From Albidovulum marisflavi (GTDB lineage Bacteria; Pseudomonadota; Alphaproteobacteria; Rhodobacterales; Rhodobacteraceae): a DNA stretch of 64,000 nucleotides. The position numbers and the translations under genes were made by a program. The notes below the pieces were generated by a model that was not told the DNA's origin, ran no database searches, and was given only the letters and a program-made list of their open reading frames with translations. The first letter of the stretch is position 1. Every line of letters begins with the position of its first letter. Positions 38,477 to 52,979 of the stretch are shown piece by piece. The stretch lies in assembly GCF_025751435.1 (NCBI RefSeq), contig NZ_JAOWKY010000001.1, positions 673,001 to 737,000 on the forward strand. The letters run 5' to 3'.

Positions 38477-38553
38477 GGCGGAGTAGCTCAGCTGGTTAGA
38501 GCAGAGGAATCATAATCCTTGTGTCGGGGGTTCAAATCCCTCCTCCGCTACCA
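38477..38553 (+). tRNA. tRNA-Met(CAU), elongator type
   Basis: 77 bases including the encoded CCA. Acceptor GGCGGAG pairs with CTCCGCT (one G-U), the D-arm is GCTCAGCTGGTTAGAGC, the anticodon arm GAGGA-ATCATAA-TCCTT gives CAU, and the T-arm is CGGGGGTTCAAATCCCTC. The sequence lacks initiator features and differs from tRNA-Ile2. From 38503 on, its 3' half belongs to the 69-bp repeat that flanks the genomic island, so the functional 3' half was supplied by the island. Confidence 0.95.
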
Positions 38554-38571
38554 CCCATCCCCTTGATATCG
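38503..38571. repeat. attL: left 69-bp direct repeat within tRNA-Met
   Basis: Identical base for base to 49858-49926. It begins AGAGGAATCATAATCC in the anticodon stem and continues through the tRNA 3' end to GATATCG. Upstream bases differ between the copies, and similarity continues imperfectly for about 39 more bases downstream. Confidence 0.93.
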
Positions 38572-38831
38572 CTGATGGGCCGGTCCGAGTTTTCGGAACG
38601 GTCATCGTCAGTTGGGAGTGCAGTTGGGAAAATTGCTCCTGCTTCATGCGCTTCGCGTTTTCGTATCGCTTGAGCAGCGAGACCTGAGTCACGGCTCAAG
38701 TAGTGTGAGTCAAGGATGCCTTTCACTTCCTTCAGGGCGTGTCCGGTGATCGAAGCGATTTCAGGAGCAGAGCAGCCGGCAAGCGCAAGCCGCGTGACTG
38801 CTGTCCCCCGGAGGTCGTGAACAGGACCAGT
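38532..38831 (-). pseudogene. Tyrosine recombinase (integrase) C-terminal remnant
   Basis: Reading the minus strand from about 38819 gives HDLRGTAVTRLALAG, then EIASITGHALKEVKGILD, then HYLSRDSGLAAQAIRK, i.e. box II His-x2-Arg, the following T-G-H and the catalytic Tyr of phage-type integrases. An in-frame TAG at 38832-38834 lies five codons before the box II His, so the N-terminal two thirds, including box I Arg, are gone. The stop codon (38532) falls inside the tRNA-Met sequence. It must once have catalysed integration here. Confidence 0.85.
38580..38601. terminator. Hairpin following tRNA-Met (island-side copy)
   Basis: CCGGTCCGA and TCGGAACGG pair with one mismatch (8 pairs) around a short T-rich loop, 27 bases past the tRNA CCA. 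A near-identical hairpin follows the right repeat at 49935-49956. It overlaps the 3' coding end of the integrase remnant. Confidence 0.5.
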
Positions 38832-38952
38832 CTAATGATCCTGTCCCCTCCGGCACTCGACCCCTACCGAGTTACCGTGACAACGTCCCCCATGTTTTGC
38901 CCACTCCCAGCTAGCAGAGCCTGGATACGGAAGGGTCAGGCCTCCATCATCG

Positions 38953-39708
38953 TCAGTCTTGCGCAATCCGTGTCGCGTAAGAGGAAAGAACCTCCTGAAC
39001 GCTGCGTGGCTTGCGTGTTTCAAGAAGTGCTCGCCCTGCGACCTGTTCTATATGGTGTTCCATTAGGTCAGCGGCCTGGTCGCCCTGACCTGCAATCAGC
39101 GCCTCGATGATCTGGCGATGCTCGTCGATCCCGCAATCCACCGAATGTGGTCGGCCATAGATCGTCAGCACCAATGAGCAGCGCGATACCGTTTCCCTCA
39201 GGTAGTGGACCAGAAGCTTGTTGCCGGTCATTTCGGCAAGGCGAAGGTGAAACTCACCTGCAAGGCGGATCGCTTCGCGCTCGTCACGCGCACCGGTCAT
39301 TTCCTCATGATCCAGCATCCGCTGCAGTTCGGCAATCTGATCCGCGTTAAGCTGTCCAGCCAGTTGCAGCACCACCATCCGCTCCAGTCCCCGCCGCACC
39401 ACAAAGATGTCGCGCCCCTCGTCCAGGGTTGGGTTGGCGACAAACGCCCCGCGGTTTGGCCTCAGGTCAACCAACCCCTCGACCGACAGGCGCAACAGTG
39501 CCTCACGGGCGATTGTGCGGCTGGTGCCGAACGAGTCGCCGATCATGTCCTCGGGAAGACGCGCACCCGGGCTGAGCTGCTGTTCAATGATCGCTTGGCG
39601 CAATGCCTCATGAACCATTTCCGTGCGGGTTGGCGTCTTCGTCGCCGCGCCCGCCTTGCGTTGTCCGGGTTTTGGCGTGGTCTGGTTGGGATCGTCGGCC
39701 TTGGGCAT
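38953..39708 (-). CDS. GntR-family (FadR/FCD subfamily) transcriptional regulator
   Basis: 251 aa. A basic N-terminal extension precedes the winged helix-turn-helix (EALRQAIIEQQLSPGARLPE to IAREALLRLSVEGLVDLRPNRGAFVA, residues about 34-90), and an all-helical FCD effector domain follows, with metal-ligand-type residues in EFHLRLAEMTGN and HRQIIEALIAG. ATG 39708 follows AAGGAG; the open frame reaching 40572 is antisense. Divergent from the transporter/amidohydrolase operon and almost certainly its ligand-responsive regulator, acting on the GCATGCAAT sites between them. Confidence 0.9.
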   Translation of the reverse strand: MPKADDPNQTTPKPGQRKAGAATKTPTRTEMVHEALRQAIIEQQLSPGARLPEDMIGDSFGTSRTIAREALLRLSVEGLVDLRPNRGAFVANPTLDEGRDIFVVRRGLERMVVLQLAGQLNADQIAELQRMLDHEEMTGARDEREAIRLAGEFHLRLAEMTGNKLLVHYLRETVSRCSLVLTIYGRPHSVDCGIDEHRQIIEALIAGQGDQAADLMEHHIEQVAGRALLETRKPRSVQEVLSSYATRIAQD

Positions 39709-39746
39709 CTCTGGCTCCTTCAGCGGTCGGCAATTGAATAGATCAT

Positions 39747-39756
39747 CGCATGCAAT
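39747..39756. promoter_or_regulatory. Putative GntR operator half-site
   Basis: CGCATGCAAT, the same 10-mer that forms the right arm of the 39885-39922 inverted repeat, lies 39 bases upstream of the GntR start. Suited to autoregulation. Confidence 0.5.
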
Positions 39757-39884
39757 GTCGGGGTCAATGCTTTTCGATAGAGGTCCGGCCTTTCCTCGCC
39801 TGACCCCCAGTCTTGTCTGAAGATCTGACGGAACAGCCTTCAGGAACGGGTCTTCCCTTGTGCACGAAAGGCAGACAACCAAGA

Positions 39885-39922
39885 AGATTGCATGCATAGC
39901 AAAAAAAGATCGCATGCAATCT
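39885..39922. promoter_or_regulatory. Putative GntR operator: 11-bp inverted repeat overlapping a TTGACA box
   Basis: AGATTGCATGC (39885-39895) and GCATGCAATCT (39912-39922) are exact reverse complements, 16 bases apart and spaced across an A-tract. A TTGACA hexamer (39922-39927) abuts the right arm and could be the -35 of the operon promoter, although no convincing -10 was seen. Each arm contains the GCATGC palindrome. Together with 39747-39756 this gives three copies in the regulator-operon gap (39709-39975). Confidence 0.65.
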
Positions 39923-39975
39923 TGACATGGAATTAAATGCAACCGAGGCTGCGAGCACTGGAAAACGAGGATGAG

Positions 39976-41034
39976 ATGACCGATTCTTCCGCTGTCTCCA
40001 TAACAGCCGTCAGCAAAAGCTTTGGCCGGGGGTCCGCCGCCGTCCGGGTTCTGGAAGATGTCTCTGTCGAGATCGGCCAGCGCGAATTCTTCACCCTGCT
40101 TGGTCCGTCTGGCTGCGGAAAAACCACGCTTTTGCGGCTGATTGCCGGTTTTGAGACCGCCGACCAGGGAAGGATCGCGATCGAGGGGCAGGATGTCACA
40201 CAGGCCCCCCCGTTTCGCCGTCCGGTCAATACGGTGTTCCAGAACTACGCACTTTTCCCGCATCTGACGGTGGAGCAGAACGTGGGGTTCGCGCTGGTCG
40301 AACAGCAGATGCCTGCTGCCCAGATCCGCGCACGTGTCGGTGAATCGCTGGAAATGGTTCGCATGCAATCCTATGCGCGCCGCCGCCCGGCCGAGCTTTC
40401 CGGGGGCCAGCAGCAACGGGTGGCTCTTGCGCGGGCGCTGGCCCCACGTCCCAAGGTGCTCTTGCTGGACGAGCCGCTGTCGGCGCTGGATCTGAAGTTG
40501 CGCAAGGAAATGCAGATCGAGCTCAAGTTGTTGCAGGCCGAAGCGGGCATCACCTTCTTGTTCGTCACCCATGATCAGGAAGAAGCGCTGACATTGTCAG
40601 ATCGCGTGGCGGTGATGCAAGGCGGCCGGATCCTGCAAATGGGTGCTCCGCGTGAGATCTACGAAACGCCGACCCACCGCTTCGTCGCCGACTTCATCGG
40701 TGACATCAACCTGATCGAAGCCGAGGCATTGCCGGGCAATACGATCCGCCTGATCGGCGGGGCACAAATCACACATCCGCATCAGGCTCACGGACGGGTC
40801 ACTCTGGCGATCCGTCCGGAACGGGCGCGTATCGTGGCCCTGGACGCAAGCCATTTGCAGGCACGCGTGGTGCACACAGCCTATCTGGGAACGGCCCTGG
40901 TGCACAAACTGGCGTTGGCCGATGGCAGCACCTTCCTGCTGCGGCAATCCGATCTGGATGGCGCCCAGCCCTCCCTTGGCAGCCAGATCGGGCTCAGCCT
41001 TCCTGCCGACAGTCTGCGAGTGCTGGTGCAATGA
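39976..41034 (+). CDS. Polyamine-type ABC transporter ATP-binding protein (PotA family)
   Basis: 352 aa. Walker A is [10 protein letters not shown]-loop [15 protein letters not shown], signature LSGGQQQR, Walker [13 protein letters not shown], switch VTHDQEEAL, followed by a TOBE domain (about residues 270-350). Such ATPases serve spermidine/putrescine, iron, mannopine and other amine-like substrates. ATG 39976 with GAGG is chosen over ATG 39937. First gene of the island operon, with an ATGA overlap to the next gene. Substrate inferred from the operon, not from the ATPase. Confidence 0.92.
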
Positions 41035-41912
41035 CCGGCAGCCCCGCCTTGCGCCGCCTTGGTTTGCTGACCCCTGCGCTGGTGACTATCGCCGTGCTGG
41101 TCGGTGTGCCCCTGACGCTGCTCTTCTGGATATCGCTTTTGCAGAAGGGCGGCAGCAGTGGGGTGGATTGGGCCTCTGTCCCATCCTTGGCCAACTACAT
41201 CCGACTGGTTTGGGAGGAGGATTTTGACGGCACGATGATCCTCAACACCAGTTACCTGGTGATCTTGCTGCGATCGATCCTGCAGGCGGCCGTAACGACC
41301 GGGCTGAGCCTGCTGTTTGGCCTGCCCGTCGCCCTTTGGATGGCCGGGCTGTCGCGCGGGCAGCGTGACCTGATGCTGTTGCTGATCACCATCCCGTTCT
41401 GGACCAACCTTCTGGTGCGCAATTACGCTTGGCTGATCATCCTGCGCGAAGATGGCTGGTTCTCGCAGATGGTCGACTTCATATCGCCAGTGGGGCCGAT
41501 CCAGTTGCTTTACAACGATCTGGCAGTGGTCATCGGCCTGACCTATTCCTTCCTGCCCTTCATGATCCTGCCGCTTTACGCCGTGTTCGAAAAGTTCGAC
41601 TGGCGGTTGCTGGAAGCCGCGCATGATCTGGGCGCCCCGCGATCACGCGCCATCCGTCGGGTCCTGATCCCCATCGCCATGCCCGGAATCGCGGCGGGTT
41701 CGCTGCTCGTGTTCATTCCGTGCCTTGGGGCCTTTGTGACGCCCGCCCTGCTGGGCGGGGGCAAGACCCTGATGCTGGGCAATATCATCCAGATGCAGTT
41801 CGGCGCATCGCGCAACTGGCCGTTTGGAGCGACGCTGGCGGTGGTGCTCCTGTCCCTCATGTTGATCGCGATGGTGACAATGGCCATCTGGCGCAACCGG
41901 AGGGTCAGATGA
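41031..41912 (+). CDS. ABC transporter permease (PotB family)
   Basis: 293 aa, about six membrane helices beginning [19 protein letters not shown]. The EAA loop is visible in [20 protein letters not shown] (residues about 196-215). It starts within the ATPase stop (ATGA) and ends overlapping the next permease, so the three genes are translationally coupled. Confidence 0.92.
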
Positions 41913-42682
41913 ACATCCGCCACTTCCCCATGACGCGCGAGATTTCGTTGCTGGTGCTGGTCTATCTCTATGTGCCCGTCGTGGTTCTGGTCGGCTACAG
42001 CTTCAACGCCAACCGAACCGCAACCGTCTGGTCACATGCGTCCCTGGATTGGTATGCCCGCATCCTTGCCAACCCGTCGATCCAGTCTGCGGCGAAGAAC
42101 TCGCTGGTGCTGGCGCTTTGCGCCGCCACGGCCGCCACGGTCATTGCTCTTCTGGCAGCGTTGGCAACCGCTCGGGCCTTTCCTAGCCGTGACGGCGTCG
42201 AGGCGGTGCTGAAAATGCCTCTGATACTGCCGGAAATCGTGGTCGCAGTGGCAACGCTGATGCTGTTCGTCGCTTTGGGCGTGCAACTGGGACTTGGCGC
42301 CATGATCCTTGCGCACACCGCGTTCTGCATCCCCTTCGCCTATCTGCCCATTCGTGCGCGGATTGAAGGCTTGAACCAAGGCTATGGCGAGGCCGCGCAG
42401 GATCTGTATGCCAATCGCTTTCGCAGTTTCCGGCGCGTGACCTTGCCACTTTTGTGGCCTGGCATCATGGCGGGTTTCACGCTGGCTTTCGTGACCAGCC
42501 TGGACGATTTCCTGACCTCGTTCTTCCTATCCGGCCCCGGCACCACCACGCTGCCGGTTTACATCTTCTCTTCGATCAAGGCGGGCATCACGCCCGAGAT
42601 CAATGCGATTTCCACTGTGATGCTGGTGATCTCGGTCCTGCTTGTATCGCTTTCCTTCTTCCTTGGCCGCCTGCGACGCTGA
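41909..42682 (+). CDS. ABC transporter permease (PotC family)
   Basis: 257 aa, about six helices starting ISLLVLVYLYVPVVVLVGYS. The EAA loop reads YGEAAQDLYANRFRSFRRVTL, followed by the PotC-like TSLDDFLTSFFLSGPGTTTLP segment. ATG 41909 overlaps the previous stop; the longer frame from 41720 is a shadow. Forms the channel with the preceding permease. Confidence 0.92.
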   Translation: MNIRHFPMTREISLLVLVYLYVPVVVLVGYSFNANRTATVWSHASLDWYARILANPSIQSAAKNSLVLALCAATAATVIALLAALATARAFPSRDGVEAVLKMPLILPEIVVAVATLMLFVALGVQLGLGAMILAHTAFCIPFAYLPIRARIEGLNQGYGEAAQDLYANRFRSFRRVTLPLLWPGIMAGFTLAFVTSLDDFLTSFFLSGPGTTTLPVYIFSSIKAGITPEINAISTVMLVISVLLVSLSFFLGRLRR

Positions 42683-42716
42683 TGCCCGAAAAACCACTCA
42701 ACAGAGGAATGACCCA

Positions 42717-43757
42717 ATGAGAAAGATCACAACCGCCTTCGCCCTTGCCGCAATGACGGCACTGCCCGTCTTCGCACAAGAGGAAGAAAAGACGCTCTAC
42801 TTCTACAACTGGACAGATTACTACCCGGTTGAATTACTTGCCAAATTCGAGTCCGAAACAGGCATCAAGGTCATCCTTGACGGCTTCGACAGCAATGACA
42901 CCTTGCTGGCCAAGCTGCAGTCGGGCGGGGCGGCCTATGATGTGATCGTGCCATCGGACTATGTGATCCCGGGCATGATCAAGGACGGCCTTCTCTTGAA
43001 GATCGACACCCCGTCGATGCCGAACTACGTCCACATGAAAGACGCCTTCAAGAACCCCGATTTCGACCCCACCCACGAATACAGCGCCCCCTACCTGTGG
43101 GGTGTCACCGGTCTTGCCTATGACAGCGCCGCGGTCGGCGGGGCCGAGATCGAACACAGCTGGAAGGAACTGTTCGAGCCGCGTCCCGAGTTCGAGGGCA
43201 AGATTGCCGAGCTTGATACCGCAAGCGACGTGATCCTCACGGCCTCGCTTTATCTGGGCATACCGCAATGCACGGAAAGCAACGATGATGCCAAGCGCAT
43301 CCTTGATCTGCTTGAGGCACAGGCGCCCAAGCTGAAGATGTATTCGTCCGACAGCACTGTGGACCGCATGGCTTCGGGCGAAGTGTCGATGTATCATGTC
43401 TGGAACGGCGCGACGGCGCGGGCGACCGCTCAGCGTGACACGATTCGCTTCGTCTATCCCAAGGAAGGCACGCCGATGTTCCGCGACAATTTCGCGGTCC
43501 CGGCCAATGCGCCCCATCCGGAAAACGCCAAGATCTTCATCAACTGGATGATGGCTCCCGAGAATGCGGCGGCGGTATCGAATGCGATTGCCTATGCCAA
43601 TGCGATCAAGTCGGATGAGTTTCTTGATCCAAAGTGGCGCGCCATGGACGCCATCAACATGCCAGAGGAGTATGCCTCCCGTCTGGTTCCGACACTGGAT
43701 TGTGGTCCGGCTGCGCGTGATCTGCGCGACAAGATCTGGACCCGCCTGAAAGGCTGA
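42717..43757 (+). CDS. Polyamine-type periplasmic substrate-binding protein (PotD/PotF family)
   Basis: 346 aa. Signal peptide MRKITTAFALAAMTALPVFA followed by the mature start QEEEKTLYFYNWTDYYP; the YNW-x-DYY pattern is typical of PotD-like proteins, in which aromatic and acidic residues grip an amine. Other conserved parts are YDVIVPSDYVIPGMIKDGLL and NFAVPANAPHPENAKIFINW. Captures the transporter's substrate in the periplasm, probably a cationic or amide-bearing compound. AGAGGA precedes ATG 42717. Confidence 0.9.
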   Translation: MRKITTAFALAAMTALPVFAQEEEKTLYFYNWTDYYPVELLAKFESETGIKVILDGFDSNDTLLAKLQSGGAAYDVIVPSDYVIPGMIKDGLLLKIDTPSMPNYVHMKDAFKNPDFDPTHEYSAPYLWGVTGLAYDSAAVGGAEIEHSWKELFEPRPEFEGKIAELDTASDVILTASLYLGIPQCTESNDDAKRILDLLEAQAPKLKMYSSDSTVDRMASGEVSMYHVWNGATARATAQRDTIRFVYPKEGTPMFRDNFAVPANAPHPENAKIFINWMMAPENAAAVSNAIAYANAIKSDEFLDPKWRAMDAINMPEEYASRLVPTLDCGPAARDLRDKIWTRLKG

Positions 43758-43812
43758 CCATGCTGCGGCCCCCGTCCTCGGGGGCCACACCCCAAAACAG
43801 CGGAGCGGCAGG

Positions 43813-44964
43813 ATGACGACTTACACCAATCTGCGTGATATCGACGGCCAAACCGTCGGAATCCGTTGCAGCGGCGGACTTATCGACGCGGTCGGCCCGG
43901 ATGTCACCGCAGCTGATGCGGTGGATGGGTCGGGGCGGTTGGTTCTGCCAGCCTTCGTCGAACCGCACGTCCATCTGGATAAGACCCTGTGGGGCGAGGC
44001 GTGGCAGCCGGGCAAGCGCACCGCAAGGCTGCGCGACTACATTGAAAACGAACGGCGCGTCCTGTCGGCCAACACCACCCCGCCCGAAGATCGCGCGGCG
44101 CGGTTGCTGGGCCAGATGCTGGCCTGCGGCACCACGGCAGTGCGCTCGCACATCGACATCGCACCCGACATGGGGTTGACCCATGTCGAGGCGATGATGC
44201 GGCTGCGCGACGCTTGGTCTGATCGGGTGGATCTGCAATTTGTGGCCTTCCCGCAGCAGGGCCTGCTCTGCCGGCCGGGCACCGCTGACCTGATCCGTGC
44301 CGCGATGGATATGGGGGTGGAAACCGTTGGCGGGCTTGATCCCGCGGGCATCGACGGTGATCCGAATGGTCAGTTGCGGTTCATCTTTGATCTTGCCGTC
44401 AAAAAAGAAGCGGGAGTCGACATTCATCTGCACGACAAAGGCGATCTCGGTGCTTGGCAGGTCGAGCAGATCATTGACTACACCATAGCCTCGGGCCTGT
44501 CAGGGAAAGTGATGATCTCGCATGCCTACTGCCTCGGCATGATCCCCGCCGACCGGTTGGAGCGGATCGGTCTCAGGCTTGCCGATGCCGGTATTTCCCT
44601 CATGACCTCGGCTCCTGCCGATGTCGCCGTTCCCCCGGTCGAGGAACTGACCGGGATGGGCGTGACGGTCTGTTGCGGGTCAGATGGCATTCGGGACAGC
44701 TGGTCACCTTTCGGCAATGGCGACATGCTGGAGCGCGCCTTTCTGACCGCTTACCGATTTGACTGGAACCGGGACGAGGACTTCGCCCTTGCCCTGAACT
44801 GCGCGACGCACGCGGCGGCCAAGGCGATCGGTCTGAAAGATTACGGCCTCGCAGCCGGAAACCGCGCCGATTTCGTAATGATTGCAGCCAGTTGTGCGGG
44901 CGATGCCCTTTGTCGACGGCCCTTGGACAGGCAAGTGGTGCGGCGCGGAAAACGCGTTGCGTGA
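43813..44964 (+). CDS. Cytosine deaminase-like amidohydrolase
   Basis: 383 aa metal-dependent hydrolase of the CodA/AtzC group. Metal ligands visible: FVEPHVHLDKTLWGE (HxH, residues about 52-66), VDIHLHDKGD, MISHAYCLG and CCGSDGIRDSWSPFGN with the catalytic Asp. The HLDKTLWGE sequence is usual for cytosine and isopropylammelide-type deaminases. Likely hydrolyses an exocyclic or ring C-N bond in an N-heterocycle. 55 bases after the binding protein, same strand. Confidence 0.87.
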   Translation: MTTYTNLRDIDGQTVGIRCSGGLIDAVGPDVTAADAVDGSGRLVLPAFVEPHVHLDKTLWGEAWQPGKRTARLRDYIENERRVLSANTTPPEDRAARLLGQMLACGTTAVRSHIDIAPDMGLTHVEAMMRLRDAWSDRVDLQFVAFPQQGLLCRPGTADLIRAAMDMGVETVGGLDPAGIDGDPNGQLRFIFDLAVKKEAGVDIHLHDKGDLGAWQVEQIIDYTIASGLSGKVMISHAYCLGMIPADRLERIGLRLADAGISLMTSAPADVAVPPVEELTGMGVTVCCGSDGIRDSWSPFGNGDMLERAFLTAYRFDWNRDEDFALALNCATHAAAKAIGLKDYGLAAGNRADFVMIAASCAGDALCRRPLDRQVVRRGKRVA

Positions 44965-44977
44965 CAGGACCAGACTC

Positions 44978-45634
44978 ATGGATTTCGACTTCTCCGCCCT
45001 TTCGGCGCAAGACCGCTATCGCCTGCTCACCAACTTTATCGGTCCCCGCCCAATTGCCCTTGTCGGCACCAAATCACTGGCGGGCCACAACAACGCGGCT
45101 CCGATGAGCTTTTTCAACGTCTTCTCGCAAGAACCTCCGCTGGTGGTTCTGGGCATTCAGAACCGTGGCAATGGCGACGAGAAGGATACCGTCGCGAATA
45201 TCCGGCGAACGGGCGAATTCGTGGTCAATATGGTCGACATGGCCTTGGCCGATGCCATGATCACCTGCAGCGTGAACTTTCCAAACGACGTGGATGAGCT
45301 GGCCTTCGCCGGGTTAACCCCGGTGCCCTGCAAAAGGATTGATGTCGCCCGCATCGGCGAAAGCCCGTGTTCCTTTGAATGCCAGGTGGAGCGGATTCTT
45401 GAATACCCCTCACGGGTTCTGATCGTGGGCGAGGTCCTTGAGATGCACGTCGAAGACCACTGCATGGATGCAGGCCGGCGCTATGTTAACCCGGAAACCT
45501 ATCAACCGATCGCGCGGCTGCATGCCGACAACTACATCACCTCGGACCGACAGTTTGAACTGAAAAAGCCCAAGGCCCTGCTTCCCTATGAACTGGCGCA
45601 GATCACTCCGCGCACAAATGAAGGTGCCGTCTGA
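44978..45634 (+). CDS. Flavin reductase-like (DIM6/NTAB) domain protein
   Basis: 218 aa split-barrel FMN protein. Recognised by NFIGPRPIALVGTKSLAGHNNAAP (residues about 19-42), where PRPIALV is the family's FMN-binding strand, then MSFFNVFSQEPPLVVLGI and DTVANIRRTGEFVVNMV. Such proteins supply reduced flavin to a monooxygenase or act on their own flavin; no monooxygenase is adjacent. ATG 44978 follows the amidohydrolase by 13 bases; its stop overlaps the racemase-like start (TGATG). Confidence 0.85.
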   Translation: MDFDFSALSAQDRYRLLTNFIGPRPIALVGTKSLAGHNNAAPMSFFNVFSQEPPLVVLGIQNRGNGDEKDTVANIRRTGEFVVNMVDMALADAMITCSVNFPNDVDELAFAGLTPVPCKRIDVARIGESPCSFECQVERILEYPSRVLIVGEVLEMHVEDHCMDAGRRYVNPETYQPIARLHADNYITSDRQFELKKPKALLPYELAQITPRTNEGAV

Positions 45635-45969
45635 TGCGCATTCACGTGATCAACCCCAATTCAACCGCCCCCATGACCCGCATGATTGCCGAAGTGGCGC
45701 AGGCTGCGGCCTCGCCCGGCACCGAGTTTGACGCTGACACCGGCCATGGCACCCCCGCCTCGATCGAAGGCTACCGACGCGAGGCGATGGCGGTCCCGGG
45801 CATGCTGGCTGCGATCATGGCCGCCGAAGCGCGAGGGGCGGATGCCCATGTCATCGCCGCCGTCCGTCTGGCCGAAGCTCTGGCAGGTGCGGGCTATCGC
45901 ACCTCGAAACTGGGCGCCTATGCCTATCCGCGTGACAAATCCGCAGACCTGCTACCCGGTGCGGCGTGA
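45634..45969 (+). pseudogene. Asp/Glu/hydantoin racemase-family remnant with internal deletion
   Basis: 111 aa, whereas family members have about 230-250. Residues 1 to about 75 (MRIHVINPNSTAPMTRMI, then a PASIEGYRREA block and GADAHVIA) match the racemase N-terminus, and residues about 77-100 (VRLAEALAGAGYRTSKLGAYAYP) match its very C-terminus; the middle, about 130 residues, is missing with the frame kept. The first catalytic Cys, expected right after VIA, is Ala at the junction, and the second lies in the lost part. It should be inactive. Overlaps both neighbours by a few bases. Confidence 0.8.
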
Positions 45970-47435
45970 TGGGCCTTGACCTGCTGACCATTGGCCAGCG
46001 TCCGAAAGGGCGCACCGCGCTGGCGGCGCGCTGGATCGTCGGGTATGTTGATGGCCGTCACAAGCTCTTGGAGCAGGCAGAGATCGTCTTCGAAGACGAT
46101 CGCGTGATCCATGTCGGCGGCCCCTTTGACGGCCCGGTGGTCCGGCGCCTTGATCTGGGGGATGTGCTGGTTTCGCCCGGTTTCGTCGATCTGGATGCCC
46201 TGTCCGACCTTGATACCACCTTGTTGACGGTGGAAAACGGCCCGGGATGGGCCACCGGCCGCGTCTGGCCGCAATCCTACGTCGATCGTGGCCCCTATGA
46301 GATGTATACGCCCGACGAACTGGCCTTTCAGAAACGCTATGCCTTCGCCCAACTCCTGCGCCATGGCATAACCACGGCCCTGCCGATTGCATCGCTTTTC
46401 TATCGTGAATGGGGAGAAACCACCGCCGAGTTCGAGGCCGCAGCCGAAGCCGCAGCCGATCTTGGGCTGCGGGTCTGGCTTGGCCCCGCTTACCGGTCCG
46501 GGGGAATGGTCTGCACCGCGCCCGGCGTTCTCGAACCCCGATTTGACGAAGCCCGCGGCCTGCGGGGCCTTGCAGATGCCATCGATTTCGCCAGCCGTAT
46601 AGGCGGCAGTCATGGCGGACTGGTGCAGGCCATGCTGGCACCCGACCGGGTCGAGACCTGCACCCTTGAACTGCTGAAGCGCACGATGGCGGCGTCCAGG
46701 GACATGGGTTTGCCTGTCCGTCTGCACATGGCGCAGGGCAAGATGGAAAGGCGAACGGTTCAGGCCCTGCATGGGACGACCGGCCCCCAATGGCTTGCGC
46801 GGCATGGTCTGTTGAATGATCGGCTGATCGCGCCGCATGCTGTCGAGGCAGAGCCAGAGGATCTGGCACTTTACGCCCAGCACAATGTCACCATAGCGCA
46901 TTGCCCGCTGGTCTATGCCCGCGACGGCGAGATGCTGCGTTCCGTCCGGCGCTGTCTCGACATGGGCATCACCATCGGCATGGGCACGGATACGGCCCCT
47001 GCCGATATGGTGCTGAACATGGCAGTAGCCCTCATGATGGGCCGCGCCGCAGAGGGCAATGATCGCGGCCTGACCTCGGCCGAGGTGTTCAATGCCGCCA
47101 CAATAGGCGGCGCCGATGCGCTGAAGCGCCCCGATCTGGGGCGCCTGCAAGCGGGCTCAAAGGCCGACATGGCGATCTTTGACATGGCGGACAGCTATTT
47201 CGCGCCACGCATCGATCCTGTCCAAAGTTTGATCTTTGGGGCGTCGGGGCGGGTGACAAAGGCCGTGTTCGTTGATGGCCGCCTGTCGATGCGTGACGGT
47301 CAGGTGGCTGGAATGGACATGGCGGCCGCCCGCCAGCAGGCACAGAGCCAGTTTGATCGACTGCTGCTGCGCTACCCGGAGCGGAGTTGGGGACAGCCGA
47401 CCTTGGGGACCATGTTCCCCGCCACTTACCCATAA
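45966..47435 (+). CDS. Amidohydrolase-family (chlorohydrolase-like) protein with atypical metal motif
   Basis: 489 aa (GTG 45966; ATG 45969 equally possible), TIM-barrel amidohydrolase. Later ligands look normal: VRLHMAQGKMERRTV, LIAPHAVEAEPEDL, TIAHCPLVYARDGEML and TIGMGTDTAPADM. The usual first-strand HxH is replaced: after LVSPGFVDLDALSDLDTTLL there is no histidine. The active site may bind a single metal or use Asp ligands. Related to guanine-deaminase/SsnA/TrzN-type enzymes; substrate unknown. Last gene of the apparent operon. Confidence 0.82.
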   Translation: MMGLDLLTIGQRPKGRTALAARWIVGYVDGRHKLLEQAEIVFEDDRVIHVGGPFDGPVVRRLDLGDVLVSPGFVDLDALSDLDTTLLTVENGPGWATGRVWPQSYVDRGPYEMYTPDELAFQKRYAFAQLLRHGITTALPIASLFYREWGETTAEFEAAAEAAADLGLRVWLGPAYRSGGMVCTAPGVLEPRFDEARGLRGLADAIDFASRIGGSHGGLVQAMLAPDRVETCTLELLKRTMAASRDMGLPVRLHMAQGKMERRTVQALHGTTGPQWLARHGLLNDRLIAPHAVEAEPEDLALYAQHNVTIAHCPLVYARDGEMLRSVRRCLDMGITIGMGTDTAPADMVLNMAVALMMGRAAEGNDRGLTSAEVFNAATIGGADALKRPDLGRLQAGSKADMAIFDMADSYFAPRIDPVQSLIFGASGRVTKAVFVDGRLSMRDGQVAGMDMAAARQQAQSQFDRLLLRYPERSWGQPTLGTMFPATYP

Positions 47436-48109
47436 GAATGTAGCCGATACGATTCAGGCGGCCGGATCACCGGGGTTCCTGCGGCGGTTGCACCGTGACG
47501 CCCGGCCTGTCTGACTGCCGCCAGCACGCCCCAAGCGGCACATCCTCAGAACCTCCAGCGTGCCCCTGACCACTTGCAGACCTGCTGTCGGGTATGGTCC
47601 GCGATCTGGTGTTTGATGGAATGGGTCCCAACGGGGTCGTGGACTGGCCTGCCGCAGGAATCGTGCGCGCACTTGGAGAAGCGGCAGGTGAGTTGTCGGC
47701 TGATGGCTGGGCACCCGTCTCCGAGGCTGGCAGTTGGGTTGCCGATCGTCATCCCAGTCAGGTCCCCTCGAAATATGGTTGTAGAAGTTGGCGCCAGGTC
47801 ATCCACGAGTCCCGAGGCTGACGTACTGCGGCCCTGAAAGTTGAAGTTTGGTTCCTCGACCATGGGACGCTCTGCCCGGCTCTACGCGGACCTGAAGCCA
47901 TTCCTCGCGGCGACGACCTCCGGCTCTGGATCTGGCGGATCGGCTCCTGTCTGCTTCGCCTTGCCCTCGTTTGCGGCACCCAGCCTTTCTCAGCGGGCGG
48001 GAACGGCGCCTGCCACGCGGGACCAAGCGTCGTCGCTTTTGCGCATGTAGAATTCGGCGCCCGTCTCCGGGCATGCTAGGCTTGTGGAAATGGGGAAGTC
48101 GGAGGGCGC
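47436..48109. other. Gap between operon and panE-like gene: degraded sequence
   Basis: 674 bases without an intact gene. It contains one recognisable domain relic (47594-47821). The minus strand has a short in-frame tail reading CPETGAEFYMRKSDDAWSRV before a stop at about 47990, too short to assign. No terminator or insertion-sequence ends were recognised. It looks like decayed genes. Confidence 0.5.
47594..47821 (+). pseudogene. Relic of an OST-HTH/LOTUS domain (C-terminus of a NYN-type protein)
   Basis: 75-residue open frame. The segment IVRALGEAAGELSADGWAPV followed by SKYGCRSWRQVIHESRG resembles the OST-HTH pattern (LRE...GW-PLSELG...P...YGF-KLSDLIE) found at the end of NYN-domain nucleases. 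The expected final strand (FEV-like) is missing and the frame stops. No NYN domain is upstream. Assignment from pattern memory only. Confidence 0.4.
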
Positions 48110-49075
48110 ATGAAAATCGCAGTGATGGGCGCAGGTGCGCTCGGCGGCTACTTCGGAGGGCGTCTGGCGGCGGCAGGGCAGGAGGTAACGCTCATTGCGC
48201 GCGGGGCGCATCTCGCGGCGATCCGCGAACGGGGTTTGAAAATCCTGAGCCCGCGCGGGAACCTGCACGTGCCTGCGATCCCGGCGACCGATGATCCCGC
48301 AACGGTCGGGCCTGTCGACGTGATCATGTTCATGGTCAAGAACTACGACGTGGAAAGCGGTGCGCGCGCGATTGCACCGATGCTTGGCCCTGAGACGATG
48401 GTGGTGACCTGCCAGAACGGGGTCAGCGCCCATGAGCGTCTCGGCGCGATCATCGGCGCAGGGCGCGTGGTGCCGGGCGTGGCGCGTATCCCGGCGGATG
48501 TGCCAGAGCCCGGCGTCATCAACCATTCGGCCATGTGGGATACGCTCGTGTTCGGCGAGGCGGACGGACAGGTGACGGCGCGCGTCGAAGGGTTCCGCGA
48601 TGCGATCGTGGCGGCAGGCGCGACGGCCGTGCTTCCTGGCAATATCCTGCACGACCTCTGGAGGAAGTTCGTCTCGCAGGCCACTCTCGCGAGCATGACC
48701 GCGCTGACGCGGCTCGATCTCGGCCCGCTGCGGACCAATCCGGACAGCCGGGCGCTTTTTACCGCCGCGATGGAAGAGACCGAGCGGGTTGGCCGGGTGG
48801 CGGTTCCGGACCTGCCCGGAGAACTGGTCCGCAAGGAATGGGAAATCCTCGAAACCCTGCCCGACACGATGCATGCCTCGATGCTCGACGACCTTAACGC
48901 CGGCAAGCGGCTGGAGGTCGACTACCTGAGCGGGGACGTGGTGCGTCTGGGGCGCAAGCACGGGGTTCCGACACCGATCCACGAGGTGTTCCTTGCGGCG
49001 CTCCGGCCGTTCAAGGATGGAGATCCCGCAGGATTGGCGAAGGACGCGGTCCAGGAGTTCAGAACCCGCACCTGA
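48110..49075 (+). CDS. Ketopantoate reductase family protein (PanE/ApbA)
   Basis: 321 aa NADPH-dependent 2-oxoacid reductase. Rossmann motif MGAGALGGYFGGRLAAAG (residues about 6-23), catalytic Lys in LHDLWRKFVSQATLAS (about 180-195) and C-terminal substrate region SMLDDLNAGKRLEVDYLSG with the conserved Glu. GGAGGG precedes the ATG. As an island gene it may be a paralogue acting on a catabolic 2-oxoacid rather than the housekeeping pantothenate enzyme; that is inference. Its end overlaps the convergent small ORF by 17 bases. Confidence 0.88.
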   Translation: MKIAVMGAGALGGYFGGRLAAAGQEVTLIARGAHLAAIRERGLKILSPRGNLHVPAIPATDDPATVGPVDVIMFMVKNYDVESGARAIAPMLGPETMVVTCQNGVSAHERLGAIIGAGRVVPGVARIPADVPEPGVINHSAMWDTLVFGEADGQVTARVEGFRDAIVAAGATAVLPGNILHDLWRKFVSQATLASMTALTRLDLGPLRTNPDSRALFTAAMEETERVGRVAVPDLPGELVRKEWEILETLPDTMHASMLDDLNAGKRLEVDYLSGDVVRLGRKHGVPTPIHEVFLAALRPFKDGDPAGLAKDAVQEFRTRT

Positions 49076-49265
49076 CGCGCCAGCTGGCGTTGCCTTGCCG
49101 CCGCCGTAGCAGCCGCCGGATCAGTTGCACATCCCTGAGCCGTGGCGCCGGATCTTGCCCTGCTGTAACTAGCCGCAGGAAGTCCAACCAAGCCAATTCG
49201 TTCTCTGTCAGGCGACCGGGATCCCTCCTTGCCGTAACGTCACTTCTTGTCCCGGCCTCGGTCAT
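49059..49265 (-). CDS. Small protein of unknown function, partner of the XRE regulator
   Basis: 68 aa. After a polar N-terminus it reads LTENELAWLDFLRLVTAGQD and DVQLIRRLLRRRQ, probably two or three helices, strongly basic at the C-terminus. It starts inside the regulator's stop codon (ATGA, 49262-49265), the strongest reason to call it a gene. Not recognised. Possible roles: regulator partner, or antitoxin/toxin-like small protein. Confidence 0.55.
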   Translation of the reverse strand: MTEAGTRSDVTARRDPGRLTENELAWLDFLRLVTAGQDPAPRLRDVQLIRRLLRRRQGNASWRVRCGF

Positions 49266-49666
49266 TTTCCGAAGATCCCCCTGATCGCCGCCCGCCCCCG
49301 CGAGGTCAAGCTTGGGTCCGTATGACCAGAGGCATCGCGGATCTCATGGGTCCAGGCGGCCTCGTTCTTCGTCGCAACGACGCCAAAGATCTCCTCGATC
49401 GCGCGCTTTGTGGTGTCGCCACCGAGCTGCTCAAGCGCGAGGTTGAAGAGAAACCGGGGATCGCACTCGAGCGCGACAGCGAGGCTCGGCACGCGGTCGA
49501 GGGGCAGCTTGGTCGCACCGCTCTTGAGCATCGCGATCATGTTGGGGTTCACGAAGCCGGCCTGCTCGGCGATCTCGGCCTGAGTCTTGCGGGGCCGGAG
49601 CTCGAGAACGCGCTTCTCGAGGAACTTCGCCAGCCGGGAATCTTCATAGGGCTTTCTTGCCATCAT
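49262..49666 (-). CDS. XRE-family helix-turn-helix regulator
   Basis: 134 aa. The N-terminal HTH is LRPRKTQAEIAEQAGFVNPN plus MIAMLKSGATKLPLDRVPSL (residues about 22-62), a classic Cro/cI-like fold. A C-terminal tail of about 60 residues of unknown role follows. ATG 49666 has AAAGG upstream; a start at 49681 adds five residues. Last gene before the right island repeat; with the small downstream partner it may be a leftover of the island's own control functions. The 191-base gap to attR shows no other gene. Confidence 0.8.
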   Translation of the reverse strand: MMARKPYEDSRLAKFLEKRVLELRPRKTQAEIAEQAGFVNPNMIAMLKSGATKLPLDRVPSLAVALECDPRFLFNLALEQLGGDTTKRAIEEIFGVVATKNEAAWTHEIRDASGHTDPSLTSRGRAAIRGIFGK

Positions 49667-49857
49667 CGTCACCTTTCTCATCGCTCGCAGATCGTTCTGC
49701 TTGCGTGATCTATAGCGACGTAAAGTTGGGGAGATCGTGGGAGCTGGGTGAGAGGCCAGGCATCGTGCCGGTTAGGAAAGCCGAGCTAACCTATTGATCT
49801 TCTTAGACGCGAAATCGACTTGGTTGGGAAAATTCTCATGAGAGTTCAATGTTCCAA

Positions 49858-49926
49858 AGAGGAATCATAATCCTTGTGTCGGGGGTTCAAATCCCTCCTC
49901 CGCTACCACCCATCCCCTTGATATCG
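49858..49926. repeat. attR: right 69-bp direct repeat, partial tRNA-Met
   Basis: Exact copy of 38503-38571, starting in the anticodon stem. It lacks the tRNA 5' half, so it is not a functional tRNA; the preceding bases (AATGTTCCAA) are unrelated to tRNA. Marks the right end of the island. Confidence 0.93.
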
Positions 49927-49934
49927 TAGACGGG

Positions 49935-49956
49935 CCGGTCCGAATTTTCGGAACGG
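49935..49956. terminator. Original tRNA-Met terminator hairpin (chromosomal copy)
   Basis: CCGGTCCGA-ATTT-TCGGAACGG, 8 pairs with one mismatch. It differs from the left copy at one base and presumably terminated the tRNA before island insertion. The remaining bases to 50099 hold only a GGGTCC/GGACCC hairpin (50084-50099) abutting the dgkA stop. Confidence 0.5.
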
Positions 49957-50099
49957 TCGGCGTCATTCTAGGGTCCCTGCCGGGCATGGCTGCGTGGTGC
50001 CGGTATGGCGCGCGCTGAAACCCGCTCCGTCAAGGACGGGACGGGTGCTGCGAATCCCCGTCTTGCAGATATGCGGCCCCGGCGGGTCCGGACGGACCC

Positions 50100-50495
50100 T
50101 CAGAGCAGCCCCGTCATCACCGTTGCAAAGAACCCCGCGAAGACGACCAGCATCAGGCCGACCGCGAGAGAGCCGAGATCCTTTGCATCCTTTGCCATCT
50201 GCGACCACTCGGGCGACACGCGATCGGTCAGAACCTCGATCGCGGTGTTGATCGCCTCGACTGCCAGCACAAGCCCGGCAAGGACGCCCGCGATCAGCCA
50301 GTGCCACGGCTCGACGCCGCGCCACAGGAAGGCCAGGGCAACGACGAATGCGCCCAGAATCTCAAGCCGGGCCGCCGTTTCCGCCCACAGGCGGCGCAGG
50401 CCGTGCAGCGAATAACCGGCGGCATCCACGACATGCATCAGCCCGCCCCTGGGGGGCACCACGGTTCGGGGCGTTTCGCTTTCCGGAGCACTCAT
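50100..50495 (-). CDS. dgkA: Diacylglycerol kinase
   Basis: 131 aa integral membrane kinase that recycles diacylglycerol, a by-product of phosphoethanolamine transfer, to phosphatidic acid. The catalytic/signature region is AVEAINTAIEVLTDRVSPEW with the ExxNTAIE motif and TDR, and three membrane helices are predicted. ATG 50495 overlaps the eptA stop (TGATG) with AAGGG upstream. The pairing with eptA makes biochemical sense, since each EptA turnover on phosphatidylethanolamine releases diacylglycerol. Confidence 0.93.
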   Translation of the reverse strand: MSAPESETPRTVVPPRGGLMHVVDAAGYSLHGLRRLWAETAARLEILGAFVVALAFLWRGVEPWHWLIAGVLAGLVLAVEAINTAIEVLTDRVSPEWSQMAKDAKDLGSLAVGLMLVVFAGFFATVMTGLL

Positions 50496-52144
50496 CAGCT
50501 TGCCCTTTGTTCCTGGCAACCCTGCGTCAGATCGAACCCTGGGTCGCGCGCCGTCGTCGCGACGTCAAGCAGGCCAAGAACGCTGTGGAAGAGGTTGTCC
50601 TGGCTTGCCGGCCGCGCGGCGGCCTTGGCCAGGCAGCCCGCGTCCAGGCCCATGGCCTGCTTGTAGCCGTCATCCAGCCAGAGCACCATGGGAACCTTCG
50701 TCTGCGTCTCGGGCGCCATGAACATCGGGGCGGCGTGAAGGTAGAGCCCGCCTTCGCCAAGCGATTCCCCGTGATCCGACAGATACAGCATCGCGGTCAG
50801 CGCCCGGTCGCTGCCCGACAGCATGTCGATGGTCTGCGACAGGACGTAGTCGGTTTCCAGGATCGCGTTGTCGTAGGCGTTGACGATTTCATCGACGGTG
50901 CAGTCGGCGAACTCCGCCGTCTGGCAGTCGGGCGCAAAGACGGCGCGATCGCGCGGATAGCGCAGGTGATAGGCCGGGCCATGGTTGCCGATCATGTGAA
51001 GCACCAGGACCGTGTTCTGCGTGATCGTGTCCAGCGTCTGCCGGATCAGCGGCAGGAAGGCCTCGTCCGTGCATTCCACCGCGCAGGCGGCGGCGTCCAG
51101 CGCCGCGTCCACCCGATCCCACCCGGTGCGTGCGGCGATATGCTGATCGCCCGTGTTGTTGTCGACCCAGCGGACGGCGAAGCCAGCGCGCGCCAACACG
51201 TCCAACAGGTTTTCCTGCGCCAGAAACTTGTCGCGCGTGTAGTCCACCTGCGACAGGTTTGAGAACATGCAGGGCAGCGACACCGCGGTCGAGGTGCCGC
51301 AGGACGACACGTCCGGGAGGTTGATCACGTCGCGCTCGGCCAGGCCGGGTGTCGTCTGGCGCGCATAGCCGTTCAGGCCAAAGTTCTGTGCGCGCGCGGT
51401 TTCGCCGACGAACAGCACCAGAAGCACGGGCTTGTCCGCCGCGGCCAGGAAGGGGCCGGGTGCCGCATCCGTCGCGATAGCGCGCAGCGCCCCGGCCTCG
51501 GCCTTGAACTGCTGCTTGGCATAGCGCGTCACGGCGGCGATGGTCGCGCCCGGCTGATAGGAGGCCATGAGGTCCTTTCTTTCGCGCAGGACCGCCGAGA
51601 ATGTCTTGAAGTCGGCAAAAAGCCCGCCGACCAGCACCGCAAGGGACAGCGTCACCCCAAGCGGCCAGCGCCAGAGGTGATGCCAGCGCTTCACGCGGGC
51701 GACGCGCGGCCAGAAAAGAAGCGCCGCGGGAAGGACGCCGGTCAGAATGATCGACGACACCGCCCCCATGGTCATCAGGTGGCGCGATTCGGTGACGGTC
51801 GTCTCAAGCACGTTTCGCACCATTTCGCGGTCGATCAGAACGCCGAAGGCCCGTTCATAGTAATGCGCGCTCGCAGACACCAGGATCAGGACCGTGGCGA
51901 CCGGTCTTTGCAGCCGGCCCGGGGCGAGGAATTCAAGCGTCAGGACGGTCAGCGCGAAGATCGAGGTCGCGAACAAGGCGGCCTGAAACGGGCTGTCGCC
52001 GAAGATGTCGATCAGACGGTTCCAGAAACCGGTGTTGAGGATCGCGAGGATGTAGACAGCCACGATCAGGTTCAATGCGGTCTGCCCGATCACCGGGCGA
52101 GGGAGTTTCAGTCGGTTTGCGAAGCACGCGTTCTGCTCGGTCAT
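50495..52144 (-). CDS. eptA: Lipid A phosphoethanolamine transferase (EptA/Mcr family)
   Basis: 549 aa. Five N-terminal membrane helices (to about residue 175) are followed by a periplasmic alkaline-phosphatase-fold domain. Catalytic Thr lies in SSCGTSTAVSLPCMFSN, and the Zn-site motifs are VLFVGETARAQNFGLNGY, HMIGNHGPAYHLRYP and YLSDHGESLGEGGLYLH. Several cysteines are placed for the family's disulphides. Adds phosphoethanolamine to lipid A or core, reducing cationic-peptide binding. Operon with dgkA; divergent from a two-component system that likely controls it. Confidence 0.93.
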   Translation of the reverse strand: MTEQNACFANRLKLPRPVIGQTALNLIVAVYILAILNTGFWNRLIDIFGDSPFQAALFATSIFALTVLTLEFLAPGRLQRPVATVLILVSASAHYYERAFGVLIDREMVRNVLETTVTESRHLMTMGAVSSIILTGVLPAALLFWPRVARVKRWHHLWRWPLGVTLSLAVLVGGLFADFKTFSAVLRERKDLMASYQPGATIAAVTRYAKQQFKAEAGALRAIATDAAPGPFLAAADKPVLLVLFVGETARAQNFGLNGYARQTTPGLAERDVINLPDVSSCGTSTAVSLPCMFSNLSQVDYTRDKFLAQENLLDVLARAGFAVRWVDNNTGDQHIAARTGWDRVDAALDAAACAVECTDEAFLPLIRQTLDTITQNTVLVLHMIGNHGPAYHLRYPRDRAVFAPDCQTAEFADCTVDEIVNAYDNAILETDYVLSQTIDMLSGSDRALTAMLYLSDHGESLGEGGLYLHAAPMFMAPETQTKVPMVLWLDDGYKQAMGLDAGCLAKAAARPASQDNLFHSVLGLLDVATTARDPGFDLTQGCQEQRAS

Positions 52145-52325
52145 CTGTCTTTCTCTGGTGCAGGGCAGGCCCGGCATGAAAAACCGGGGCGGTCATCGGA
52201 CTTGCGGTCCGCGCAAGGCCCTGGCGGGCCTGCGAGACTGCCATTGCAGGGGAACCTTGCGGCAGCCTTACAGAGGCGATGAAACTGCCACTCGCACCAC
52301 CTGCTGGAGCAGGCTACAAGGGGTC

Positions 52326-52979
52326 ATGCGCCTGCTGCTGGTCGAAGACACCGATGAGCTTGCCCAGTCGATCCTGAGGTTTCTCAGGGCCGAGGGACAT
52401 GCCGTCGACCACGCCGCCGATGCCGCAACAGCCGAGGAGGCGATGGCGCTGGCGACCTACGCCTGCGTGATTCTCGACCTTGGCCTGCCCGACGGGTCCG
52501 GGCTGGATGTGCTGAGGGCACGCCGCCGGGCGGGTGACCGGACGCCGGTGCTGATCGCCACCGCGCGCGACCAGATCAGCGACCGGATCGCGGGACTGGA
52601 TGCCGGGGCCGATGACTATGTCGTCAAGCCCTTCGATCTCAGCGAACTGTCGGCCCGCATCCGGGCCCATGCGCGGCGCGGGCAGGGCCTGCCGGAAACC
52701 CGGATCGCCGTCGCGGATCTGGAGGTCGATCGCGCCGCCGCGCGGCTTTGGCGGGACGGCGCGGAAATCAGGCTGACGGCGCGGGAATGGGCGGTGTTCG
52801 ACGCCCTGCTGGGCGCGCGCGGGCGCGTCGTGTCGAAGTCGGTGCTGGAAGATGTGCTGGGCAGTTTCGATACCGCGATCGAAGGCAACGCGGTCGAGGT
52901 CTATGTCTCGCGTCTGCGCAACAAGCTTGGCCCCGCGGTGATAGAGACGCGGCGCGGCCTGGGATACGTCTTGCCATGA
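52326..52979 (+). CDS. OmpR/QseB-type response regulator
   Basis: 217 aa. Receiver domain with phospho-acceptor Asp in ACVILDLGLPDGSGLDVL (about residue 51), acidic pair LLLVEDTDEL, and Lys in DDYVVKPFDLSEL. The winged-helix output is REWAVFDALLGARGRVVSKS and GNAVEVYVSRLRNKLG. ATG 52326 is chosen, as upstream sequence has no receiver similarity. Overlaps the kinase start (ATGA). Resembles PmrA/QseB/BasR regulators of LPS modification, matching the divergent eptA. Confidence 0.92.
   Translation: MRLLLVEDTDELAQSILRFLRAEGHAVDHAADAATAEEAMALATYACVILDLGLPDGSGLDVLRARRRAGDRTPVLIATARDQISDRIAGLDAGADDYVVKPFDLSELSARIRAHARRGQGLPETRIAVADLEVDRAAARLWRDGAEIRLTAREWAVFDALLGARGRVVSKSVLEDVLGSFDTAIEGNAVEVYVSRLRNKLGPAVIETRRGLGYVLP

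Follow-up and report, generated by a model that had tools for sequence, protein, structure and literature searches.

A decayed genomic island at a tRNA-Met gene of Albidovulum marisflavi carries an operon related to those of other genera

In a 64,000-nucleotide stretch of Albidovulum marisflavi (contig NZ_JAOWKY010000001.1, positions 673,001 to 737,000; below, the window) a tRNA-Met gene is followed, 11,355 bp further on, by a second copy of its 3' part. Does the DNA between them form a genomic island, and did its contents come as a single unit? The answer to the first question is positive: the segment 38503–49926 is a real, decayed tRNA-Met genomic island, ordinary in kind. The answer to the second one is negative, as the interior combines a foreign operon with a piece native to the clade.

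The tRNA-Met gene (anticodon CAU; 38477–38553, plus strand) is the only tRNA called by ARAGORN in the window; it is complete and represents the integration target. The initial annotation described a perfect 69-bp repeat, with the left copy completing this tRNA and the right copy being an orphan 3' part, and both statements hold. Bases 38503–38571 and 49858–49926, both on the plus strand, are identical over 69 bp, and the wider repeat comprises 108 bp at 94% (38503–38610 versus 49858–49965). The similarity of the right copy begins at position 27 of the tRNA, by the anticodon stem, and ARAGORN calls no tRNA there. A search of the same genome (3.82 Mb, 10 contigs) with the 134 bases 38477–38610 yields six matches, that is, both copies and four other tRNA genes at 75–80% (a second CAU tRNA, two tRNA-Thr and one tRNA-Arg). 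Since only two copies of the repeat were found, it does not belong to a dispersed family, a possibility raised in the annotation and now ruled out. These observations support the identification of the copies as attL and attR, the left and right attachment sites of an integration at tRNA-Met.

A fragment of the recombinase is retained at the left end, as the annotation proposed. The frame 38532–38819 (minus strand) encodes the C-terminal 95 residues of a tyrosine integrase, starting at HDLRG, keeping GH and SHY, and ending inside the tRNA, so that its last codons are antisense to the tRNA 3' end. We take these motifs to be box II and the catalytic tyrosine. Weak profile matches were obtained, to the PHROG integrase (E 0.0008) and to Pfam PF00589 (E 0.078). 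Of the 67 aligned residues, 58 (87%) are the same in the integrase at the corresponding place in Defluviimonas sediminis FT324, a member of the same genus set, and the DNA similarity between the two ends at 38819, at the H of HDLRG. The D. sediminis protein is longer, its longest open frame having 293 residues, but is likewise decayed and, as read, also looks shortened. An integrase reduced to its last 95 residues should be inactive, and hence the island should have lost the capacity for autonomous movement.

The same site was then compared in 22 genomes of the genus, A. marisflavi included. Judged from the coordinates, selD is at most about 1.4 kb away from a match to this tRNA in 19 of them; the remaining three (G006, G015, G018) have a selD gene that is incomplete or divided between contigs. 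Of the 18 genomes that make up the 19 with A. marisflavi, 16 were examined downstream of the tRNA, and each of these 16 has a tRNA-Met(cat) called by ARAGORN. The nearest relative (G011; SelD 87% identical) has no island at this tRNA. Its gene order is selD, tRNA-Met, three pqi-like genes (named from translations), rhlE, lysR, an isochorismatase-like gene and two dehydrogenase-like genes, and it matches the window in the selD–tRNA flank and again from rhlE onward. The empty site predicted in the annotation, with selD, tRNA-Met, the flank from 49927 onward and then dgkA, was not seen. In D. sediminis (G021, contig C15, loci L080–L081) the same tRNA-Met harbours a different island of 25 kb. The decayed integrase comes first, then some 25 kb occupied by different genes, and finally an xre gene together with an incomplete att site (85% over query positions 27–85) that begins at the same tRNA position as the right copy in the window. 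The DNA common to the two islands is confined to the left end up to 38819 (81%) and the right end at 49119–49916 (79%), if a single weak match to potA and an additional, fainter one to the small open reading frame (ORF) at 49059–49265 are disregarded. The D. sediminis interior includes an arsenite-oxidase-like gene pair, transporter genes and a chromate-transporter-like gene, the names being read from translations and not from a profile search. The other 14 stretches fetched (2.3–19.9 kb) contain no second att copy. Nor do they contain the rhlE neighbourhood of the window, with the exception of G010, where rhlE has a match at a distance of 17.5 kb from the tRNA; they are hence hardly informative on the empty site.

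The fact that the region is arranged differently in A. marisflavi, the nearest relative and D. sediminis would agree with a chromosomal rearrangement that duplicated the 3' part of the tRNA, the repeat then not being an attachment site. However, an integrase remnant adjoins the tRNA, D. sediminis shows the same architecture and the composition is foreign, so that such an origin is highly improbable.

The composition, which the annotation suggested examining, is different: the G+C content inside the island (38572–49857) is 0.616, compared to 0.693 in the left flank and 0.660 in the right one (0.66–0.69). Within the island it is 0.611 in the operon described below and 0.665 in the segment around panE. 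The G+C content at third codon positions (GC3) is 0.68–0.76 in eight of the nine operon genes, as opposed to 0.79–0.85 in 12 flank genes.

The part of the island shown to be foreign is 38951–47431, an operon of about 8.5 kb with the gene order gntR-potABCD-amidohydrolase-flavin reductase-racemase-amidohydrolase. Its DNA is 83–84% identical to that of an uncultured Rhodobacteraceae (L100) and 80–82% identical to that of Rhodobacter kunshanensis (L134). The operon proteins are 88–95% identical to those of L100 (79% for the racemase pieces), whereas SelD is only 79% identical to that of D. sediminis from the same genus. Operons of the pot type were found in eight of the 37 named loci (L100, L101, L103, L104, L105, which is cut by a contig end, L107, L108 and L134). 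The order and directions of genes are the same in L100, L134 and L104 (Gemmobacter serpentinus), where the racemase is of full length and the neighbours are other ones. In the tree of the second amidohydrolase (29 rows, that is, the window and 28 of the 37 loci, with L126–L132, L135 and L136 left out) the window groups with L100 (support 98/90) and then with L101 and L134 (100/99), all from other genera and apart from the D. sediminis locus L107. Among the 22 genus genomes, only A. marisflavi and D. sediminis (77%) have a PotD relative above 45% identity. The D. sediminis operon, with protein identities of 58–81%, resides at another place than this tRNA, and the same cargo in synteny without the tRNA duplication, which the annotation listed as an observation that would speak against it, was not encountered. 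Thus, comparison of sequences supports horizontal acquisition of the operon, which is related to operons of other Paracoccaceae genera. A search with the whole island matched 70 plasmid records, none covering 80% of it (18% at best). In an uncultured Pseudorhodobacter (L101:2318-2461) the gntR end of the operon follows a tRNA-Thr gene at a distance of 68 bp; of the repeat families present there, at least 60 in number, the 20 largest include no repeat of a tRNA end.

The cargo as a whole is not a single unit, and in this respect the claim of horizontal acquisition needs to be narrowed to the operon. The segment 47954–49041 is 87% identical to another place in the nearest relative (contig C66, near 215 kb) and hence is clade-native. 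It belongs to a segment (47954–49075, plus strand) with the panE-like gene for 2-dehydropantoate 2-reductase (48110–49075). This raises the question whether the operon arrived together with the integrase. An alternative is that it was added later to an island already in place, through homologous recombination, transduction or a similar process, and this we find rather probable. The similarity to L100 spans 38951–45858 and 45855–47431 and then stops at the operon's own gene ends; the operon neighbours, as read from translations, differ in L100, L101, L104 and L134; the panE piece comes from the same clade; and D. sediminis has the same ends but not the same interior. On the other hand, the borders of the operon revealed neither a repeat nor a recognisable insertion-sequence gene. 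Late entry is compatible with the integration at tRNA-Met described here, as its second step. The stretch of about 520 bp that separates the operon from the panE segment (47432–47953) gave no blastn match in the searches run, and two of its ORFs, scanned with Pfam, have no match. A weak 31-nucleotide inverted match (71%) to 39216–39246 begins at 47954.

The right flank has a history of its own. The annotation placed the island between core-like selD and dgkA, but dgkA as an ancestral neighbour has to be rejected. The dgkA-eptA-qseBC block (50097–54220) is outside the island and is not at this place in the nearest relative or in D. sediminis. Its part 50097–54194 matches positions 9.3–13.4 kb of contig C66 in the former at 79%, and most of the block matches contig C11 of the latter at 74–75%; in both genomes it stands beside an envZ-like sensor-kinase gene (identified by reading) near tRNA-Asn. 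The equivalent of that place in A. marisflavi (C2:1806731-1809128) has no such block, and hence the dgkA flank is a newcomer. In C2:1806731-1811791 of this genome the sensor-kinase stretch and a regulator stretch (1809382-1811791) are now neighbours, separated by 254 bp, and the match of the second one in the nearest relative adjoins panE. Since in that relative dgkA-qseBC is beside the sensor-kinase stretch and panE is near the regulator stretch, both pieces may share one source place. No relative among those read (G011, G021, G001) has panE and dgkA side by side.

A changed flank can also be explained if two elements of the same family entered the tRNA in turn, so that the right copy is their junction and dgkA-eptA-qseBC lies in the remains of the older one. 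The genes ahead of rhlE differ among A. marisflavi, the nearest relative and D. sediminis, in agreement with such serial insertion. Moreover, the 57 bp of the right copy that lie past the end of the tRNA show closer agreement with flanks on the island side (51/57 for the left copy, the first 18 belonging to the exact repeat, and 47/57 for the left end in D. sediminis) than with those on the chromosome side (42/57 in the nearest relative and 36/57 for the right end in D. sediminis). A single clean insertion would not predict such a flank, which leaves room for serial insertion or conversion. Both flanks fold as a hairpin, not clearly better than shuffled sequences (z −1.9 and −0.8). However, no third att copy was found in the window, including the region between qseC and rhlE, or elsewhere in the genome, and two relatives show the chromosomal location from which dgkA-qseBC derives. 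On balance we consider serial insertion unlikely.

We return to the reading of the locus as a tRNA-Met island that was formed by recombination of a tyrosine integrase, has a mosaic interior and is now immobile. Besides the flank of the right copy, several facts weigh against it. The clear empty site is seen in one relative only, and its tRNA-adjacent genes differ from those of both other genomes. The integrase remnant scores under the Pfam cut-off, and no intact element of this family was found. The potB gene is host-like in GC3 (0.823). The codon part of the compositional check fails to separate every island gene from the flank, as panE has a codon distance of 0.347, compared to 0.365 for the flank gene dgkA and 0.385 for the isochorismatase-like gene. 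We nevertheless hold this reading with high confidence. A mobile element with a tyrosine integrase would have recombined into the 3' part of the tRNA-Met gene. It would have brought its own copy of that part, so that, judging from the anatomy of the locus, the tRNA was rebuilt on the left and the displaced 3' part was orphaned on the right. The ends may then have persisted while the interior was exchanged, which is consistent with the related ends and different contents observed in D. sediminis. The present interior would be the result, comprising the 8.5-kb catabolic operon and the clade-native panE piece, and the ability of self-movement would have been lost when the integrase was reduced to 95 residues.

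What does the operon do? The gntR gene (38953–39708, minus strand; PF07729, PF00392) encodes a regulator of the GntR/FCD family and is divergent from the rest. The intergenic region (39709–39981) has three GCATGCAA/TTGCATGC sites (39748, 39888, 39912), which we propose as candidate GntR operators. Such sites are at corresponding positions in two of the four compared relatives (L100, L134); the gntR-potA gaps of L101 and L104 have none in the exact form. All subsequent genes are on the plus strand: a PotA-type ABC transporter ATPase (39982–41034; TIGR01187 over the cut-off), PotB- and PotC-type permeases (41031–41912 and 41909–42682) and a PotD/PotF-type solute-binding protein (42717–43757), the last three matching NCBIfam equivalogs under their cut-offs. 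They are followed by amidohydrolase 1 (43813–44964), of the cytosine deaminase / N-isopropylammelide hydrolase type (PRK05985 over the cut-off; PDB 6nbo, E 1.3e-87), a flavin reductase-like FMN protein (44978–45634; PF01613, PDB 4z85, no NCBIfam match), a shortened Asp/Glu/hydantoin racemase (45634–45969) and amidohydrolase 2 of the chlorohydrolase family (45966–47435; PRK06151 over the cut-off; PDB 3hpa, 4v1x and others). Among the transporter, amidohydrolase and flavin reductase-like proteins, only PotA and the two amidohydrolases pass a curated NCBIfam cut-off. Amidohydrolase 2 resembles chlorohydrolases and deaminases by family, and the likeness to genes of s-triazine degradation (atzB/atzC type) is at the family level only. 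From the protein families, the operon most likely imports a small nitrogen-rich compound via the PotABCD-type transporter, and the two metal-dependent amidohydrolases and the FMN protein most likely degrade it, with the divergent GntR acting as a repressor. We found no paper describing this combination of genes.

The racemase has 111 residues compared to 241 in L100, as 390 nucleotides have been lost in frame, preserving the overlap with the amidohydrolase 2 gene. The deletion removes both cysteine motifs present in L100 (HVIACFDDPG and VLGCAGM), to which we ascribe a catalytic role, and the protein is probably dead. The racemase is absent from three of the eight related operons (L101, L103, L107) and thus seems dispensable.

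The tRNA-distal end is formed by an xre-like regulator (49262–49681, minus strand; HTH_3 weak, E 0.00057, below the cut-off) and a small ORF (49059–49265, minus strand) that is a companion of xre in several relatives. The xre gene at the same end of the D. sediminis island is 84% identical over residues 31–139. A 95% copy of the protein is encoded on contig C7 of A. marisflavi itself, where C7:4726-55435 (loci L197, L099) constitutes a further island, about 50 kb long, that adjoins a different CAU tRNA. ARAGORN calls this tRNA tRNA-Met; its start GGGCCTGTAGCTCA suggests, we assume, tRNA-Ile2. An orphan 30-base tRNA end (C7:4726-4755) matches the 3' end of this second CAU tRNA (C7:55360-55435) at 97%. 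The integrase domain there (C7:53769-54197) is on the same strand as its tRNA, unlike the window.

It is tempting to regard xre and its small partner as an end-module common to tRNA-seeking islands of one family in the Rhodobacterales, marking the tRNA-distal end in the window, D. sediminis and C7 islands while the integrase and the interior change freely, and possibly taken from plasmid or phage maintenance genes. We put this forward tentatively and find it doubtful. An xre match occurs in 34 of 295 genomes of the family, own included. In the 14 loci taken from as many of the other 33 genomes (L183–L196, for the most part the best matches), a tRNA gene is found within 4 kb in nine, within 8.1 kb in two more and nowhere in the stretch in three, the chance level not having been computed. 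No partial tRNA copy is present in any of these 14 stretches, which counts against a common end-module. Relatives of xre are seen in 12 of 50,697 phage records (10 of them Rhizobium) and in 267 of 72,556 plasmid records; of the latter, 265 are less than 60% identical and no more than 11 span 80% of the protein. One is near repC in RHEph10, one near a replication gene in a Gemmobacter plasmid and one near CRISPR genes in a Cereibacter plasmid.

How does the island relate to known systems? In islands integrated into tRNA genes by tyrosine integrases, the tRNA is rebuilt at one end, its 3' end is orphaned at the other, the integrase adjoins the tRNA, the cargo is metabolic and the G+C content is lower. 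All of this applies here: direct repeats of the tRNA 3' part bound the segment, the integrase gene is next to the tRNA, albeit as a remnant, the segment is absent from the same tRNA in the nearest relative, with another island in D. sediminis, and the cargo is foreign in the operon but not in the panE piece. The differences are the truncated integrase, the mosaic interior with its clade-native piece and the changed right flank. The closest counterpart is the D. sediminis island, with the same tRNA, related integrase and xre ends and a partial att site from the same base, but with an unrelated interior and a longer, although decayed, integrase. We found no report on Defluviimonas islands in the literature. 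An integrative and conjugative element was rejected, as no protein among those scanned (10 + 6) has a Pfam match to relaxases or type IV secretion. An intact prophage was rejected since Pfam gave no phage structural or packaging genes; PHROGs were run on xre, the small ORF and the integrase piece only. Likewise, a composite transposon was rejected, given no transposase match among the scanned proteins and only weak inverted pairs (31 nucleotides, 71%; 21 nucleotides, 86%), neither at the island ends. It has been reported that 35% of high- and medium-quality Rhodobacteraceae prophages are in tRNA genes, tRNA-Met included (PMC8224337). The likeness to these consists in the xre relatives in Rhizobium phages; the difference is that no phage structural genes were recognised in the window island.

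Thus, at one tRNA-Met site in this Defluviimonas-like genus, two species have islands with related ends and unrelated interiors. The case of dgkA demonstrates that a flank that looks core can be a newcomer itself. Finally, the operon offers a testable, most likely catabolic, function that has spread between genera.

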